This document shows, piece after piece, positions 49,530-58,222 of a stretch of 64,000 bases of DNA; within the stretch, counting starts at the first letter, position 1; each line of letters begins with the position of its first letter. The translations under genes and the position numbers were made by a program. This DNA is from Planctomycetota bacterium. Its GTDB lineage: Bacteria; Planctomycetota; UBA1135; GCA-002686595. The stretch covers positions 1-64,000 of the forward strand of contig CANKOY010000002.1 in assembly GCA_947484275.1 (NCBI GenBank), written 5' to 3'. Below the pieces are notes generated by a model. It was not told where the DNA came from, made no database searches, and saw only the letters and a program-made list of their open reading frames with translations.

Positions 49530-51512
49530 CTAGGACGCCGCGCCAACCTTGGCCCGCCACTCCTCCGCGGTCAGGAGTATATCCCTGCGCTGACCGCCCA
49601 AGTACGGGCCGATGAGGCCCTGCTCCTGAAGCTGATCGAGGACCGCGGTGGCCTGCTTGAAGTCCAGGCCGAATTCGCGCTGGAGCATCGAGACGGCCAC
49701 GCGCTGGTGCTTCAGGAACAACTCGGCGCTTCTCTGGAGCAATTCCTCACCCTCGGCGGCGGGCTGCATGGGGAGCTTCGCGCTGGGCTTGGGAGCCAGG
49801 GTGACCGTGCGCTCGACCGGCTCGGACTTGGGCGCGGGCTTCTGGGGCCCATCGAAGAGGTCGGATTGGACGGGCTGGAGGACGACTTCGCGCTCGCGGC
49901 GCGCGGGAGCGCTGGCCGCCGCCTTCGGTGCCTCTTGTGTTGCGCCAGCTGCAGGCGCAGGGGGCGAGGCGATCGCGAATGCAACTGCCGGAGTCGAGAC
50001 CTCGTCGATATCCGGCTCGAGCTCGGCCTGGGGATCGTCCTCGAAATCGGGGGCCTCGCTCTCCTCATCAGCGTCGAGGTCGGGCTCGGAGTCGAATTCA
50101 GCTTCGTCCTCGGCCTGCTCGTCCTCGGTCTGCGCTTCCAGGTCGCCTTCCACGTCGTTTTCAACGTGTGCGGGCTCGGAAGCGATCGCCGCTGCAGGGG
50201 CGCTTTCCGCCAGCGGGAGTTCGGACTCGCGACTCTTGCCGCGCAGTTCGGCGACGAGTTCCAGGGGAGTGCCGTAGGCATCGACGACTTCCGCGTCCCC
50301 AGGCGGCTCTGCTTCAACCTCGACCTCAATGCTCTTCGAGGCTACGGCCGCAGGCATCTCCAACACCTCCGGCTCGGGCTCCAACTCTGATTCCCAGGAC
50401 GGCGCGCCCAGGGGACGGTCGGGCGAGGTGATCGGCGTCGCCGAGACCGGACCGCGACCAACGGCGAGCGGCGACTTCAGCTCTGTCGACTTCGGGGCGA
50501 CCTGGGCTGCTCCAGGGCCGCGGGCATCCTTGGCTCCAGCCAGATCTGCGCCAGTGCGGACCGGGGCGGCGTCAACTTTGGGAGCGCTCCAGGTGTACAC
50601 GGACCCAGGGCGACTCGCACCGCCAGCGACCGGTGCATCGGACTTGACCGCGGGAGCGGGGCTGCCACGGACGGCGACAGGAGTTGCGAGGGGACCTGCG
50701 GCAGGCGCTGCGGTTCGTGACTCATGGATAATGTCGATGGGCTGCGCCCCGGCCGGGATCCCACCTCCGCGACGGACGTCTTCGGGATAGGGCGAGGGCG
50801 CGCGATTGACGCTCGAGGGGTTGTTCCGGTTCGAACTGCGCAGGGCCTCCAGGATTTCGTCGCGCTCGGGGTCGGGCAGGAGCGCGCTGGCCTCAGCGGA
50901 GGTGACGCCAGAGGGATCTTCCGTGCGCGCCTTGGCCGGCGGGGCATTGCGGGTGCCGCGGGCAGCGGAAGTCGGGGCCGCTGTCTCAGCTGTGGGAGTT
51001 TCGCCGATCAGGCTGCTGACGCGCTCCACTAGGGCCGGCGGGGCAACGCGCAACCAGATGACCCAGGCGGGCACGAGCAGCGCCGCAAAACCCAGGAGAG
51101 CTCCTGCGACCACGGTTCCAAGCTGGCTCATTTCCCAGCCAACCATGGCCCCGACCGAGCCGCCCAGGGTCGGCGAGAAGGCACCTAGCAGGATCGAAAG
51201 CCCCAGGGCCGTCGCGGCGAAGCCAACTGCGTCGCGGCCCAGCCCACGCTCGCCGCCGGACATGAACAGGCGCACGCCGATGAACAGAAGCCCCAAACAG
51301 AGCCACAGGATCGGGGCTGCCCCGAGGAACTGGATGAACCCGCTCATCAGCTCGCCGTAGGTCGCCTGATTCTCGGTGGGCCCCTTGGTGATGAACATCA
51401 CTGACGAGGTGCCAAGCAGGGCGGACGCGGCGATCAGTCCCAGGCCGGTGATGTCGTGCACGACAGTGTGCGGGACGGTGGATTTCTTGGTGTCGGTCAC
51501 GGTCTTCCTCAT
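49530..51512 (-). CDS. FtsK-like membrane protein lacking the ATPase motor
   Basis: A 660-residue protein. Residues 15-170 hold four hydrophobic helices with FtsK-4TM-like features ('TLGGSVGAMVGWEMSQLGTV', then 'FAALLVPAWVIWLR'). Residues about 175-575 are a long, low-complexity linker, Ala/Pro-rich with an acidic block near 430-480. The last ~70 residues align with the FtsK gamma winged-helix: 'LLQRSAELFLKHQRVAVSML', 'EFGLDFKQATAVLDQLQEQG', 'GQRRDILLTAEEW'. No Walker A/B or other RecA-type motor motif lies between. It sits 43 bp downstream of the full ftsK. It looks like a motor-less FtsK paralogue; partner or anchor roles are possible. Confidence 0.75.
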   Translation of the reverse strand: MRKTVTDTKKSTVPHTVVHDITGLGLIAASALLGTSSVMFITKGPTENQATYGELMSGFIQFLGAAPILWLCLGLLFIGVRLFMSGGERGLGRDAVGFAATALGLSILLGAFSPTLGGSVGAMVGWEMSQLGTVVAGALLGFAALLVPAWVIWLRVAPPALVERVSSLIGETPTAETAAPTSAARGTRNAPPAKARTEDPSGVTSAEASALLPDPERDEILEALRSSNRNNPSSVNRAPSPYPEDVRRGGGIPAGAQPIDIIHESRTAAPAAGPLATPVAVRGSPAPAVKSDAPVAGGASRPGSVYTWSAPKVDAAPVRTGADLAGAKDARGPGAAQVAPKSTELKSPLAVGRGPVSATPITSPDRPLGAPSWESELEPEPEVLEMPAAVASKSIEVEVEAEPPGDAEVVDAYGTPLELVAELRGKSRESELPLAESAPAAAIASEPAHVENDVEGDLEAQTEDEQAEDEAEFDSEPDLDADEESEAPDFEDDPQAELEPDIDEVSTPAVAFAIASPPAPAAGATQEAPKAAASAPARREREVVLQPVQSDLFDGPQKPAPKSEPVERTVTLAPKPSAKLPMQPAAEGEELLQRSAELFLKHQRVAVSMLQREFGLDFKQATAVLDQLQEQGLIGPYLGGQRRDILLTAEEWRAKVGAAS

Positions 51513-51555: not shown

Positions 51556-54342
51556 TCACGCGTCGGAGCCCCTCGAGCCGCCCGGCAATTCGCTGCCGTG
51601 CTGCTCTTCCCATTGGTCGATGGTCATCAAGACTTCGCGGGCCTTGCTGCCCTTGTGGTCAGAGACGATGCCCGCTTCGCCCATCATGTCGAGCAAGCGA
51701 GAGGCGCGCGTGTAGCCGACCCCGAGGGCGCGCTGCAAAAGGCTCGCGCTGCCGCGTTTGGATTTCAGGATCACGCGCACGGCCTCGTCCCACATCGGGT
51801 CGTCCAAGGCCGTCTCGAAGCCTTCGCCGGCGCCCGGTTGCGCGGTGCCTGTGGTCAGCTGCTTGAGCTCTTGGTTGAAGTTCTGCGCCGAGTGGGTGCA
51901 GACGAAATCCACCAGAGCCTTGATCTCGTGGTCCTCGACCAGCGCGCCTTGGACGCGCTTGATGCGCGAGCTCTGGGGCGGGTTGTAGAGCATGTCGCCG
52001 CCGCCGAGCAGTTTCTCAGCGCCCATGGCGTCGAGAATCACGCGGCTGTCGACTTTCGACGCCACTTGGAACGCAATGCGCGTCGGCAAGTTGCCCTTTA
52101 TCACGCCGGTGATCACGTCCGTGGAGGGTCTCTGGGTGGCCAAGATCACGTGGATGCCGACGGCGCGCGACTTTTGCGCCAGGCGCGTGATCGCCTGTTC
52201 GGCCTCCTTCTTGGCCTGCATCATCAAGTCAGCGAATTCATCGACGACGACGATGATGTAGGGCACGTGGCGCGGTGTGCGGTCGCTGAACTCATCTCCA
52301 AGACGCTCGCGCAGGCCAGCTTCGCCCAGGGCGTTGTAGCCCTTGAGGTTCTTGACGCCCGCGGCGCGGAACAGCTCGTAGCGGCCTTCCATTTTCTCCA
52401 CAGCCCACTCGATGACCTTCGTCGCCTGGCGCATGTCCGTGACCACCGGCAGCATCAAGTGCGGGATCTTCTCGAACAGTTGCAGCTCGACCATTTTCGG
52501 GTCGATCAGGATCATCTGCACGTCGTGGGGCGAGCGCGTCAAAAGGAAGCTGGCGAGGATCGTGTTGATGCACACCGACTTGCCCGAGCCGGTGGTGCCC
52601 GCGATCAACAGGTGCGGCATGCGCGCCAGGTCTTCGATGATCGGAAAGCCCTCGGCGTCGATGCCAAGGAACAGCGGCAGCGCTCCGGCCTTCTTGTCGT
52701 AGGCGGACTGGTTGACCAACTCCGAGATGCGCACCTTGCGGCGCGCGCCGTTGGGCACTTCGATGCCGATGGTCGCCTTGCCGGGGATCGGGGCGATGAT
52801 GCGCACCGATTGGGCACGGAGGGCAGCCGCGATCTCCTGGCTGAGCTGCGTGACCTTGTTCATGCGCGTGCCCTGCGACACCTCGAGCTCGTACAGGATC
52901 ACGGTGGGCCCGATCTTGGCGCCGCAGACCGTGGCCTCGACGCGGAACGAGAGCAGTGCTGCCTCGAGCTTGCGCGCCTGGGCTTGGATCGACTTCTCGT
53001 CCAGGTTCGCGGCGCCGTCGGGCGGCTCAAGCAGCTCGAGCGGCGGCAGGCGCCACTCGCCCGGAGGCGGAGTCGGCGGTTCGAAAGGCAGATCGTGCAC
53101 CAAGCCCGTCTTGCCTGACTTTGGCCCGGCCTTGATCGCAGCCTTCGGAAGCGCGGAGGGGATCACGTGATCGTCTTCCGGGTGGCCTTCCTCGTCGTCG
53201 AAATCCTCGGGATCTCCTGAGCCCTCGAGGTCGTCGTCCGGGCGCGTCCCGTTCCCGCCAATACCCTCGGAGTCCTCCTCTGAAAAATCGTCTTCGGTGG
53301 CCGCATTGACCGCGATCGCATCCTCATCGAAGTCGTCGCCGTCGGGGTCCCCCACCTCATCGTCGTCAAGACCATCGAAGGAACCGGCGGCGGGCACTTC
53401 CTCATCGTCCTCGGAGTCCGAGAGATCCCCGAGGTCAGCGTTCTTCGCGGTCGGCGGGAGCTCCTCCGGCTTGCCATTTTTCGGGCGGCGTCCAACGGTT
53501 GCGGGCACCGCGGTCGCAGCGCCTGCGGCGGCGAGCACCGGTGCAAGTTCTCGAACTCCCGTTCCGTTTCGAGCCTCCGCGCTCTCGCCCAGTCGCGCGC
53601 CGCGAAGGAAATCCCACAGGCCAAGGAACATGTTGCGCACCCAAGTCACCAGGGCGCGCGCGAACGATTCGCCGCGCTCCTCGCGGCGCTTCTTCGCCCA
53701 CTGACCAAGCTCCAGCAGCAGCGGGTAGAAGGCCATGTTGGTCGCGAGCATGAACGAGACCAGGGCCAGGGCGAGCATCAGGATCCACAGACCCGGACCG
53801 CCGACCTTGTCCTCCAACATCGGCGTCGCTTCGTTGGGGAACCAACCGCCCGCGCCGTAGGGCAGACCACTGGTGGGAACGAAACGCCCGTCAGCGCCGC
53901 GGAAGGCGAGGTGCAGCAGGAATCCGAGCGACAGGATGAACGCGAGCGCCGAGAACAGCCGCAGCAGCACCTTGGGCACCGTCTTTCGCGCGATCAACAC
54001 CACGCCCCAGGCCAGTCCAAGCACGGCAAGCACGTGCCCAGCCGCTCCCGCGAAACTGTGGGCCGCGGTGGCCAAGAAGAATCCGAGCCGGCCACCCCAG
54101 TTGTATCCCTGTGCTCCCGGATCGCCGAAGGGAGCGTGGTAGCTGATCAGTGCGACCCACAGCCACACCGAGCCGAAGAGCATGAAAATGCCGACGACTT
54201 CGCGCGCGTGTTGCGAGGGCGCTTCGTCCTCGTCGGCCACGAACAGACTCTTGGCGAGCGCTCCGAGGCGAGCCGCAAGGCTCGTCCCCCCGCCTTCTGC
54301 CTCTGTTGTCGTCGAACGTTTGCGCGCTGCCGCTCGGGCCAT
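51556..54342 (-). CDS. ftsK: DNA translocase FtsK/SpoIIIE
   Basis: A 928-residue septal DNA pump that moves the chromosome terminus during division. Four N-terminal membrane helices (about 50-230) are followed by a linker with long acidic runs (about 270-390). Then comes the alpha/beta motor: Walker A 'TTGSGKSVCIN' near 585, Walker B 'MILIDPKMVEL' near 608, 'VVDEFADLMMQ' and 'ATQRPSTDVITG'. A gamma winged-helix domain is at about 845-915 ('RGSASLLQRALGVGYTRASR'), which would read polar KOPS-like sites. It is followed by the motor-less paralogue on the same strand. Confidence 0.97.
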   Translation of the reverse strand: MARAAARKRSTTTEAEGGGTSLAARLGALAKSLFVADEDEAPSQHAREVVGIFMLFGSVWLWVALISYHAPFGDPGAQGYNWGGRLGFFLATAAHSFAGAAGHVLAVLGLAWGVVLIARKTVPKVLLRLFSALAFILSLGFLLHLAFRGADGRFVPTSGLPYGAGGWFPNEATPMLEDKVGGPGLWILMLALALVSFMLATNMAFYPLLLELGQWAKKRREERGESFARALVTWVRNMFLGLWDFLRGARLGESAEARNGTGVRELAPVLAAAGAATAVPATVGRRPKNGKPEELPPTAKNADLGDLSDSEDDEEVPAAGSFDGLDDDEVGDPDGDDFDEDAIAVNAATEDDFSEEDSEGIGGNGTRPDDDLEGSGDPEDFDDEEGHPEDDHVIPSALPKAAIKAGPKSGKTGLVHDLPFEPPTPPPGEWRLPPLELLEPPDGAANLDEKSIQAQARKLEAALLSFRVEATVCGAKIGPTVILYELEVSQGTRMNKVTQLSQEIAAALRAQSVRIIAPIPGKATIGIEVPNGARRKVRISELVNQSAYDKKAGALPLFLGIDAEGFPIIEDLARMPHLLIAGTTGSGKSVCINTILASFLLTRSPHDVQMILIDPKMVELQLFEKIPHLMLPVVTDMRQATKVIEWAVEKMEGRYELFRAAGVKNLKGYNALGEAGLRERLGDEFSDRTPRHVPYIIVVVDEFADLMMQAKKEAEQAITRLAQKSRAVGIHVILATQRPSTDVITGVIKGNLPTRIAFQVASKVDSRVILDAMGAEKLLGGGDMLYNPPQSSRIKRVQGALVEDHEIKALVDFVCTHSAQNFNQELKQLTTGTAQPGAGEGFETALDDPMWDEAVRVILKSKRGSASLLQRALGVGYTRASRLLDMMGEAGIVSDHKGSKAREVLMTIDQWEEQHGSELPGGSRGSDA

Positions 54343-55670: not shown

Positions 55671-55743
55671 TTATAGACGACCGCCCCCTCGGAGTGGCTG
55701 CCCCCCCCATCGCTGGGTCGCTTCCGCGCGCTAGATGCGCCGA

Positions 55744-55791
55744 CCTCTGTTTACAGCCAGAGGGGCCAGTGGGCCCCGGAGCATTGATCAA
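55744..55791 (+). promoter_or_regulatory. Tandem hairpins and TTGATCAA palindrome upstream of the TGA-containing thioredoxin gene
   Basis: In the 220-bp divergent gap, CCTCTG/CAGAGG (55744-55763) and GGGGCC/GGCCCC (55762-55777) form two adjoining hairpins that share two bases, and the palindrome TTGATCAA lies at 55784-55791. They may be a leader structure or an operator site. No standard -35/-10 pair could be assigned with confidence. Confidence 0.35.
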
Positions 55792-55891
55792 TCAAGGCAA
55801 AAAGCCGTCTGCTGACAGCGCGGAGGCCCACAAACAGGCTATTGTCGCTCGTCCGGGGTGCGTCCTCTCGACCTCCCCACAGCTAAAAATT

Positions 55892-56848
55892 ATGAAGACT
55901 CTCCAATTGCTACTCGCGCCCGTCGCGATGGTGGCTCTGGTTGCCTTCGCTCCCGTGGAAGGTGTTGTTGGCAAATCCATGCCGGCGATCCCGATCGAGG
56001 GGCTGACGCAGACCAAGGCCAAGTCGTTCGACGAGTACACCGGACGGGCAGTGCTCGTCGAATTTTTCGCCTACTGGTGAGGCCCCTGCAGCTCGTCAGT
56101 CCCGCACCTCAATCAACTCCAGGAGGAGTACGGTGCCAAGGGGCTGTCAGTCATTGGCGTGACCAGTGAAGGCGCTTCCGAAACGGATAAATGGGTGGCC
56201 GAGCACGGTGCGAAATTCGCCTACGGCTACGACAAAGGCGGCAAGCTCTCCAGGTTCTGCGGCGTTGCGGGCATCCCCCACGCTGTCCTTTTCGACCCCA
56301 GCGGCAAAGCCGTTTGGGACGGACACCCCGGCGGACTGACCGGCAAGGACATTGAAAAGGCCCTGGTCGGCGCCCTGCCGAAGTTGCCTTGGGAGTGGGA
56401 AGCGCCGTTGCAACCGGCGGCGCAACTGCTCGCCAAGCGTCAATTCGCCAAGGCGATCGCAGAGGCCCAGAAGGCCGGCACCGCGGGCGAACCCCTGGTG
56501 GCCGCCGTGCAAGCGGTAGTCAAGGGACGCGTCGAGGGGATCAACGCGGCCAAGACCGCCGGCGATTTCCTGGGGGTGACCGAGGACGCCAGCGCATTGT
56601 TGAAGGACATCAAGGGCCTGCCCGAAGAGGAGGCTCTCGCGGCGCTGATCAAGGAAGTTGCCAGCGACAAGGAAGCCCAGAAAGTGATCTCGGCTCAAAA
56701 AGTCGTGCGCGAAATCGGCTCGGAGAAGATCAAGAAGCGCGATCTCCCCGGCGTGATCAAGAAACTCGACAAGATCGCCAGCGAGAACGAAGGCAACGCC
56801 GCAGGCCGTGAAGCGCGTTCGGCCATCGAGGCGCTGCGCAAAGTCTGA
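55892..56848 (+). CDS. TlpA/thioredoxin-like selenoprotein candidate (Sec-Gly-Pro-Cys)
   Basis: One reading frame of 318 codons interrupted only by TGA at 56078-56080 (codon 63). Residues 1-27 are a signal peptide. Residues 28-150 are a TlpA/AhpC-type thioredoxin fold: 'AVLVEFFAYW-[TGA]-GPC' replaces the usual W-C-G-P-C, so Sec63 and Cys66 would be the redox pair. 'LSVIGVTSEG' and the cis-Pro loop 'GIPHAVLFDPSGKAVWDGHP' follow. Residues 150-318 are a Lys/Ala-rich helical domain. Frame, codon use and homology continue past the TGA, which argues for selenocysteine rather than decay. A terminator follows. It probably reduces disulphides or peroxides outside the cytoplasm. A point nonsense mutation is the alternative. 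Confidence 0.8.
56081..56145 (+). promoter_or_regulatory. SECIS-like stem-loop candidate after the in-frame TGA
   Basis: Starting with the first base after the TGA, the RNA can pair GGCCCCT (56081-56087) with AGGGGCT (56139-56145), GCACC (56104-56108) with GGTGC (56132-56136) and ACTCC (56116-56120) with GGAGT (56125-56129). That leaves an AGGA tetraloop. Bacterial SECIS elements lie just 3' of the UGA and need a G near the start of the apical loop, as here. The loop is about 40 nt from the UGA, at the far edge of the usual range. The fold was done by eye. Confidence 0.4.
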
Positions 56849-56864
56849 TTCGGCGGGTCCACAG

Positions 56865-56901
56865 AGGCGGGGCGGTCCAAGGGGCCGCCCCGCCTTTTTT
56901 T
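56865..56901 (+). terminator. Rho-independent terminator after the thioredoxin-like gene
   Basis: AGGCGGGGCGG and CCGCCCCGCCT pair over 11 bp around a 9-nt loop, followed by TTTTTTT. It starts 17 bp beyond the stop codon of the TGA-containing gene, which supports the whole gene being one transcription unit that is still maintained. Confidence 0.92.
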
Positions 56902-56908
56902 GCGGCCC

Positions 56909-58114
56909 CTACTTCAGAAGTTCCTGCTCGAGCCGCTCGAGGAAGAACCCGACGTCAGTCACCAGTCCCAGGGCGTGCATCGTGCCGCGATTGGAGAGTT
57001 TGGTGGGCAACGCCTCGGTCATGTCCACGCACACCGTCTTGACGCTGGCCGGAAGCAGGTTTCCCACGGCGATCGAGTGCAGCGCCGATGCGAGCATCAG
57101 GCACATGCCGCAACCCTCGAGCGCCTTTCCGTAGGCCACCTGCGCTTCCAACACATCCGTGATCACGTCCGCCAGTGGACCGTCGTCGCGGATCGAGCCC
57201 GCGAGCACGTAGGGCACCTTGGCGCGCACGACTTCATACATGACGCCGCGCTGCACCAAGCCCGCGTCCACGGCCTGCCGAATCCCGCCGCAGCGATTGA
57301 CCGCGTTGATCGCGAACAGGTGATTGCGGTTGCCGCCCTCCACCGCGCGACCGCTGAGCTGGCACACGCCGAGCGACGTTTTCAGGATCGCCTTTTCCAA
57401 GTCGTGCGTCGCAAAGGCATTGCCCGTGAGCAGCACCTGGATCCAGCCGGCGCGCACGAGGCGCCCAAGGGCAGCGTCGCCGCCGGAGTGCACGATCGCT
57501 GGTCCGGCGACGAGCACGATTTTCGCGCCGCTCTCGCGCACCTGCTTCATCTCGCGCGCAATGCCAGCGATCGCGATGACCTTGTTGACCTCCGAGGAGA
57601 CGTCGTTGGTCATGAAACCGAACACGGAGTAGCCGCGACTGCGCTGGGGCGGAACTACGCGCACGCCGCCGCCGCGCAGGAGGACGGGCTCATCGGCGCG
57701 AACGAGGCGCTGCTTGACGCAGGTCGGCTTCCCGCCGCGCAGGACGAGGGCACAGTCCATTTTCTGCGCGGCGACTTGGATCCAGCCGCCGCCTATACGC
57801 ACGTAGGTTTCGAAGTTGGTCGTCGAGTAGAACGCGTCGGGCAAGATCCCGTCCGCTTCTGCGGATTCGAAACGCGCGTCGGCGACGTGTGTGGACGCGC
57901 CCAGATAGGAAAGGCTCTGCAGGATCGCGTCGAGCACGTGGGGATCCTTCGCGCGCACTGCGAGGCGCGCCGAGGAAGGCTCCTCGTTGGTCTTGCCGAT
58001 GGCGAAGTCGAGCACCTCGAACTCTCCGCCCTCCTCGACGATGCGCGCAAAGGTCTTGCGCAGGATGTCCGAGTCGATCAAGTGCCCGCTGAGTTCGACA
58101 ATTTCCTGGACCAT
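56909..58114 (-). CDS. TIGR00300-like protein (LOR/SDH domain; nickel-pincer ornithine cyclodeaminase type)
   Basis: A 401-residue protein of the TIGR00300 family. The N-terminal ~100 residues match the LOR/SDH domain ('GHLIDSDILRKTFARIVEEG', 'FEVLDFAIGKTNEEPSSARL'). The C-terminal ~280 residues carry 'GYSVFGFMTNDVSSEVNKVI', 'IVLVAGPAIVHSGGDAALGR' and 'LLTGNAFATHDLEKAILKTS'. By family knowledge such proteins are linked to ornithine cyclodeaminase activity, in part with a nickel-pincer nucleotide, and larB lies in this window. The ATG at 58114 is preferred; the frame extends to 58165. It is preceded by a large inverted repeat at the gmk end. Confidence 0.75.
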   Translation of the reverse strand: MVQEIVELSGHLIDSDILRKTFARIVEEGGEFEVLDFAIGKTNEEPSSARLAVRAKDPHVLDAILQSLSYLGASTHVADARFESAEADGILPDAFYSTTNFETYVRIGGGWIQVAAQKMDCALVLRGGKPTCVKQRLVRADEPVLLRGGGVRVVPPQRSRGYSVFGFMTNDVSSEVNKVIAIAGIAREMKQVRESGAKIVLVAGPAIVHSGGDAALGRLVRAGWIQVLLTGNAFATHDLEKAILKTSLGVCQLSGRAVEGGNRNHLFAINAVNRCGGIRQAVDAGLVQRGVMYEVVRAKVPYVLAGSIRDDGPLADVITDVLEAQVAYGKALEGCGMCLMLASALHSIAVGNLLPASVKTVCVDMTEALPTKLSNRGTMHALGLVTDVGFFLERLEQELLK

Positions 58115-58129
58115 TGTGCGGCGATGGTA

Positions 58130-58222
58130 GCGTACGGAGTCGGGTGAATTCGTCCGGGGTTCCATCGACCCGCCCGGCGCGGATGGATGGATCCGCGCAC
58201 GAATTCAACCGATTCCGTGCTC
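58130..58222. repeat. Imperfect inverted repeat (about 36-nt arms) at the gmk 3' end
   Basis: Left arm 58130-58165 and right arm 58187-58222 are reverse complements at about 29 of 36 positions, with a 21-bp loop. The perfect core is TGAATTCGT (58145-58153) and ACGAATTCA (58199-58207). The right arm contains the last six codons of gmk. Both arms would read M-D/E-P-R-T-N-S. It could be a terminator-like hairpin for gmk or a mobile-type palindrome. Confidence 0.7.

Follow-up and report, generated by a model that had tools for sequence, protein, structure and literature searches.

A predicted exported thioredoxin-like selenoprotein with a UGPC motif, conserved across a bacterial family

The interrupted gene and its protein

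The window, that is, the whole 64-kb stretch of DNA that was analysed, carries on its forward strand a frame that runs from ATG to TGA and whose sole interruption is another TGA, at codon 63 (Table 1). The codon is found in the context LVEFFAYW-U-GPCSSSVPHLNQLQ, which can also be written LVEFFAYWUGPCSSSV. The first-pass annotation of this DNA had described a frame open over 318 codons save for one TGA, free of frameshifts and followed by a strong terminator. All of this was borne out. No second disruption was found in the frame, and the terminator consists of a hairpin proper at 56863-56897 and a T run after it. It had also been anticipated that a gene caller would split the gene, and an ordinary ORF listing indeed gave two pieces, 55694-56080 (128 aa, GTG start) and 56159-56848 (229 aa, GTG start). 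The G+C content at the three codon positions had a coding-like pattern that hardly changed across the TGA (0.63/0.40/0.76 before and 0.67/0.45/0.78 after). At the composition of the window, the chance that 255 more codons would stay open after the TGA was P ~0.002. The search for other TGA-interrupted genes in the window gave four candidates, all of them without redox motifs and resembling normal gene ends.

Table 1. Features of the selenoprotein gene (positions in the window)
Feature	Position	Strand	Remarks
Full CDS, 318 residues	55892..56848	+	Codon 63 UGA read as Sec; stop is TGA 56846-56848
In-frame TGA, predicted selenocysteine U63	56078..56080	+	TGA in 62/70 homologues, TGC/TGT in 7/70, TAA/TAG in 0/70
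Active site W-U-G-P-C, W62-C66	56075..56089	+	W62, position 63 and C66 invariant (28 aligned orthologues)
Thioredoxin-fold (TlpA/ResA/DsbE-type) domain, residues ~25-160	55964..56371	+	Pfam, AlphaFold, Foldseek, invariant columns
All-helical C-terminal domain, residues 163-318	56378..56845	+	Structure models; Pfam and fold searches without match
Candidate SECIS-like hairpin ACUCC-AGGA-GGAGU	56116..56129	+	-6.1 kcal/mol; unproven
Intrinsic terminator, long G+C-rich hairpin, then T run	56863..56901	+	-34.1 kcal/mol, z -3.7

Three genes on the reverse strand lie nearby. A nickel-pincer nucleotide-dependent ornithine cyclodeaminase (56909-58165; TIGR00300, 485 bits) is convergent with the selenoprotein gene. 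The gene at 51556-54342 encodes an FtsK translocase that matches its model nearly to the end, and its neighbour at 49530-51512 looks FtsK-related, with only an FtsK_gamma domain at the C-terminus.

The predicted protein matched AhpC-TSA and Redoxin above the Pfam cut-offs. Its nearest solved sequences and folds, including those found with Foldseek, were DsbE (3gl3), ResA (4nmu, 1st9), CcmG and TlpA. The AlphaFold model (pLDDT 88.7) contained a thioredoxin domain at residues ~25-160 and a helical domain at residues 163-318, and the helical domain modelled by itself reached a pLDDT of 93. The intact thioredoxin core and the helical C-terminal domain described in the first pass are thus both backed by the structure models. 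The helical domain belonged to no family in the Pfam search, and a fold search against solved structures gave no match at E <= 0.001, the best being BamD-like TPR proteins at E 2.5. The columns invariant among 28 orthologues include W62, position 63, G64, P65, C66 and P129. The redox motif falls where helix 1 of the fold begins, and Pro129 (56276-56278) probably occupies the place of the thioredoxin cis-Pro. The hydrophobic N-terminus, MKTLQLLLAPVAMVALVAFAPVEG, resembles a signal peptide as judged by eye only. When contigs were searched with the protein alone, only weak matches to Chloroflexi TlpA proteins were obtained (25-48% identity), and a plasmid search returned only ordinary TlpA/ResA proteins at an identity below 60%.

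Conservation of the TGA and the selenocysteine machinery

A homologue was present in all 81 of the 81 genomes of the same taxonomic family, and most best matches contained exactly one in-frame TGA. Seventy homologues within the family, the 30 best and 40 further loci, were read at codon level. Codon 63 was TGA in 62 of them, TGC/TGT in 7 and GAG in 1; TAA or TAG was found in none. In the 30 best orthologues, which are full length and share 33-94% pairwise protein identity, a TGA aligned with codon 63 in every case, within FFA(Y/H)WUGPC or a close variant. The 40 further loci had TGA in 32, TGC/TGT in 7 and GAG in 1. It had been proposed that the TGA sits where the first Cys of W-C-G-P-C belongs, and the homologues with Cys at this site agree with that placement. 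Setting aside one motif-less paralogue, the alignment contained only TGA or Cys codons at codon 63, and the other stop codons that would have spoken against the proposal did not occur there.

Conservation by codon position among the 30 orthologues was 0.73/0.83/0.53 for residues 30-62 and 0.70/0.78/0.53 for residues 64-100. These values are alike before and after the TGA, and coding selection continues on both sides of it. Beyond the family, searches of the class and the phylum listed homologues with one TGA in several further taxonomic families, as judged by the number of TGA codons and not by codon position. Of the seven Cys loci, four (L088-L091) belong to ordinary TlpA paralogues and three (L061, L068 and L078) are orthologue-like. 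The single GAG locus, L075 (G005:C1:2719660-2720804), is a tandem paralogue near L041 in the same genome. It has lost the whole redox motif, with GEQTS replacing WUGPC, while full length is kept, and it is possibly a non-catalytic partner.

The main test of the first-pass proposal was whether the genome encodes the machinery for selenocysteine (Sec), and SelA, SelB, SelD and tRNA-Sec(UCA) were all found. The genome containing the window (G000) is an assembly of 3.67 Mb in 101 contigs, 87.9% complete with 2.5% contamination, in which no 16S rRNA gene was found. SelA scored 487.5 bits, SelB scored 309 bits with TIGR00475, and SelD scored 294.8 bits. The SelD gene has one in-frame TGA in the context ACAGUAGK, at the known Sec site of SelD. 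The tRNA-Sec (selC) has the anticodon TCA. In this draft assembly, selB and selC are on contigs other than that of the selenoprotein gene: selA, selD and selC lie less than 10 kb apart on contig C12 (locus L092, C12:40000-56000), and selB is on contig C15. SelB was over the cut-off in 73 of the 81 family genomes. It was absent above the cut-off from G010, G057, G067 and G068, all incomplete assemblies, despite a UGA gene or gene fragment in each.

Two other accounts of the TGA were weighed against these data. The TGA is one base away from TGC and TGT in a genome known from a draft assembly, so that a Cys codon might have been mutated in a pseudogene or misread in sequencing or assembly. However, 61 other family homologues, from many genera, share the TGA and the protein sequence is conserved downstream of it, while the frame at 55892-56848 has no second disruption. 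The misreading of a TGC or TGT at 56078 that the first pass had named as a danger is ruled out by these homologues, and the pattern of TGA and Cys codons across the homologues leaves no room for a sequencing error, a pseudogene or the read-through of a random stop; we give this account a negligible probability. Alternatively, an unusual UGA-decoding tRNA might insert Cys or another amino acid, which would make the protein an ordinary CGPC enzyme. In favour of this are functional-looking homologues that have Cys at the site, and the weakness of the SECIS signal. Against this, the Sec machinery is complete, SelD of the same genome has a UGA at the known Sec site, and the only UGA-decoding tRNA seen, in a search short of a full genome tRNA scan, was the canonical tRNA-Sec. 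UGA is also often a terminator in the family, since 18 of the 30 orthologues end in TGA. We consider such a tRNA very improbable. The assignment of Sec to codon 63 is close to certain as a prediction from sequence. Because UGA is kept at the position of the catalytic Cys and the bacterium has the full Sec machinery, an exported selenium-containing redox protein is very probable.

Recoding signal and Sec-to-Cys changes

The published bSECIS model (PMC13188914) places a hairpin 16-37 nt downstream of the UGA and has a G in the first two positions of its loop. In the best simple hairpin of the gene in the window, the loop comes 40 nt downstream of the UGA, beyond the range of this model. Pair counts for the hairpin at columns 39-52 from the UGA gave weak covariation, and the test is weakened by Leu and Lys/Glu codons that impose some of this pairing. 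RNAalifold found no consensus structure across the family, and the folding energy after the UGA was not clearly lower than that of random synonymous sequences made by synonymous-codon shuffles. A subclade of 15 shares a hairpin of 7 bp and a 6-nt loop, located 17 nt downstream of the UGA, whose second loop position is G. Here, 84.7% of cells were paired, three pairs were changed on both sides, and slid controls were far lower. This plausible SECIS hairpin, which does not extend to all family members, fits the published model.

In a tree of the 70 homologues, in which several deep nodes were poorly supported and had long branches, the Cys orthologues L061 (G032), L068 (G061) and L078 (G055) were nested within the Sec clade. 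Their genomes retain SelB. The position of these three orthologues inside the Sec clade suggests that Sec was replaced by Cys, with at least two such changes in genomes that keep SelB. According to a current review, Sec-to-Cys reversal is rare in bacteria and has been documented mainly for FdhA and SelD. A bolder reading joins the two observations: the lineage might insert Sec into exported TlpA-like proteins by means of a SECIS element outside the published bSECIS model, while several orthologues have reverted from Sec to Cys. Such an element would be variable in place, with its register shifting between subclades and lying more than 37 nt from the UGA in the present gene, and the reversions would have taken place in Sec-using genomes. 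We regard this combined reading as doubtful.

Proposed function and relation to known families

We think it highly likely that the product of the gene is an exported TlpA/ResA-like thiol-disulfide oxidoreductase in which Sec would replace the nucleophilic first Cys of CGPC. SelB would bring Sec-tRNA to the UGA at codon 63, aided by a downstream RNA element, and the protein would be exported by means of its hydrophobic N-terminus. Outside the cytoplasm, the U63 selenolate would attack a substrate disulfide, and the mixed selenosulfide would be resolved by C66. A membrane transporter of the DsbD/CcdA type may then re-reduce the resulting U63-C66 selenosulfide; the genome has a single DsbD_TM gene. 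The C-terminal helical domain probably recognises a substrate or partner. The neighbours of the gene in the window (CoaBC-like and the ornithine cyclodeaminase) are not beside the orthologues in relatives, and as gene neighbours differ between relatives, the genomic context points to no partner. We hold the reductase direction and the partners, as proposed from sequence comparison, with about even confidence.

The main functional rival is a peroxidase role, in which the Sec protein would act as an oxidant, a peroxidase or a Sec-dependent peroxiredoxin-like enzyme instead of being a ResA/TlpA-type disulfide reductase. The models of its best Pfam matches, AhpC-TSA and Redoxin, include peroxiredoxins, and Prx-like UxxC selenoproteins are already known. 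However, ResA, DsbE/CcmG and TlpA are the solved structures closest to it, the active site reads WUGPC rather than TxxU and its resolving Cys is invariant, and the export-like N-terminus, again judged by eye, hints at an extracytoplasmic place. A peroxidase role is a rather unlikely alternative to the TlpA/ResA-like oxidoreductase.

The protein resembles ResA, DsbE (CcmG) and TlpA (PDB 3gl3, 4nmu, 1st9) in its thioredoxin fold, with a motif of the W-x-G-P-C type in the same place, in the conserved Pro129 at the expected cis-Pro and in its exported-type N-terminus (by eye here). It differs from them in having Sec for the first Cys and an extra helical C-terminal domain of ~155 residues. Its scores were far below the cut-offs of the NCBIfam models for ResA (65.9 bits, cut-off 170) and DsbE (45.4 bits, cut-off 123). 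The nearest selenoprotein model, NF041054 (WAxxUGC_long, a ResA-like selenoprotein), shares the TlpA-like domain and the long C-terminal part and weakly matched 28 of 28 members. The protein scored only 40.1 bits against its cut-off of 300, and its motif, FFAYWUGPC, has a Pro between Gly and Cys, unlike WAxxUGC. True members of NF041054 were found as separate paralogues within the same taxonomic order, for example in G138. No NCBIfam model, NF041054 included, matched the family above its cut-off.

Selenoproteins with a UxxC motif have been catalogued as 'Thiol-disulfide isomerase-like protein' (cd02966), 'Redoxin family protein' (PF08534) and Prx-like (PF00578) (PMC13188914, Table 1), and the thiol-disulfide isomerase-like kind came from a Sargasso Sea survey (PMC1088965). 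The cd02966 and PF08534 kinds agree with the present protein in fold class and Sec placement, a likeness of fold and motif and not of sequence. The Prx-like thiol:disulfide oxidoreductase selenoproteins (PF00578) have an AhpC-TSA/Redoxin-type domain and UxxC, a likeness by description and not by sequence; the present protein differs in standing closest to ResA/DsbE structures and in its additional helical domain. Sec in place of Cys in thioredoxin-like selenoproteins is thus a known pattern, as the first pass had said (PMC13188914, PMC1088965). We found no paper naming WAxxUGC, and among papers naming Planctomycetota and selenocysteine, none dealt with the selenoproteins of that phylum by title and abstract. 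Since the protein stays below the NF041054 cut-off and the UxxC kinds are already catalogued, we call the gene a new member at family level: the predicted family is a new selenoprotein family of a known kind, with the catalogued UxxC families compared by fold class and motif only. The term 'probable new selenoprotein' used earlier thus stands for the predicted selenoprotein, by the shared TGA and the machinery, and for the novelty of the family, but not for novelty of kind.

Relatives contain many further TlpA/ResA-like genes with one and some with two in-frame TGAs, for example at G015:C36:45351-46331, G014:C12:15568-16560 and G062:C133:5967-6731, a sign that thioredoxin-like selenoproteins may have undergone a large expansion in the lineage. 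Some genomes of the phylum have at least 35 copies of PF07596, a domain whose abundance is a planctomycete hallmark, and the phylum is therefore probably Planctomycetota.

This predicted but well-supported selenoprotein family occurs in dozens of genera at least, in a single phylum. Because NCBIfam has no model for it, annotation is likely to break each member into two ORFs and to lose the active site. Sec would be commonly used in exported thioredoxin-like proteins of this lineage, and the natural Sec/Cys pairs offer a means of testing what Sec contributes. If a loose SECIS element and Sec-to-Cys reversal were both true, the lineage would be a natural test bed for the looseness of SelB recognition and for reversal.
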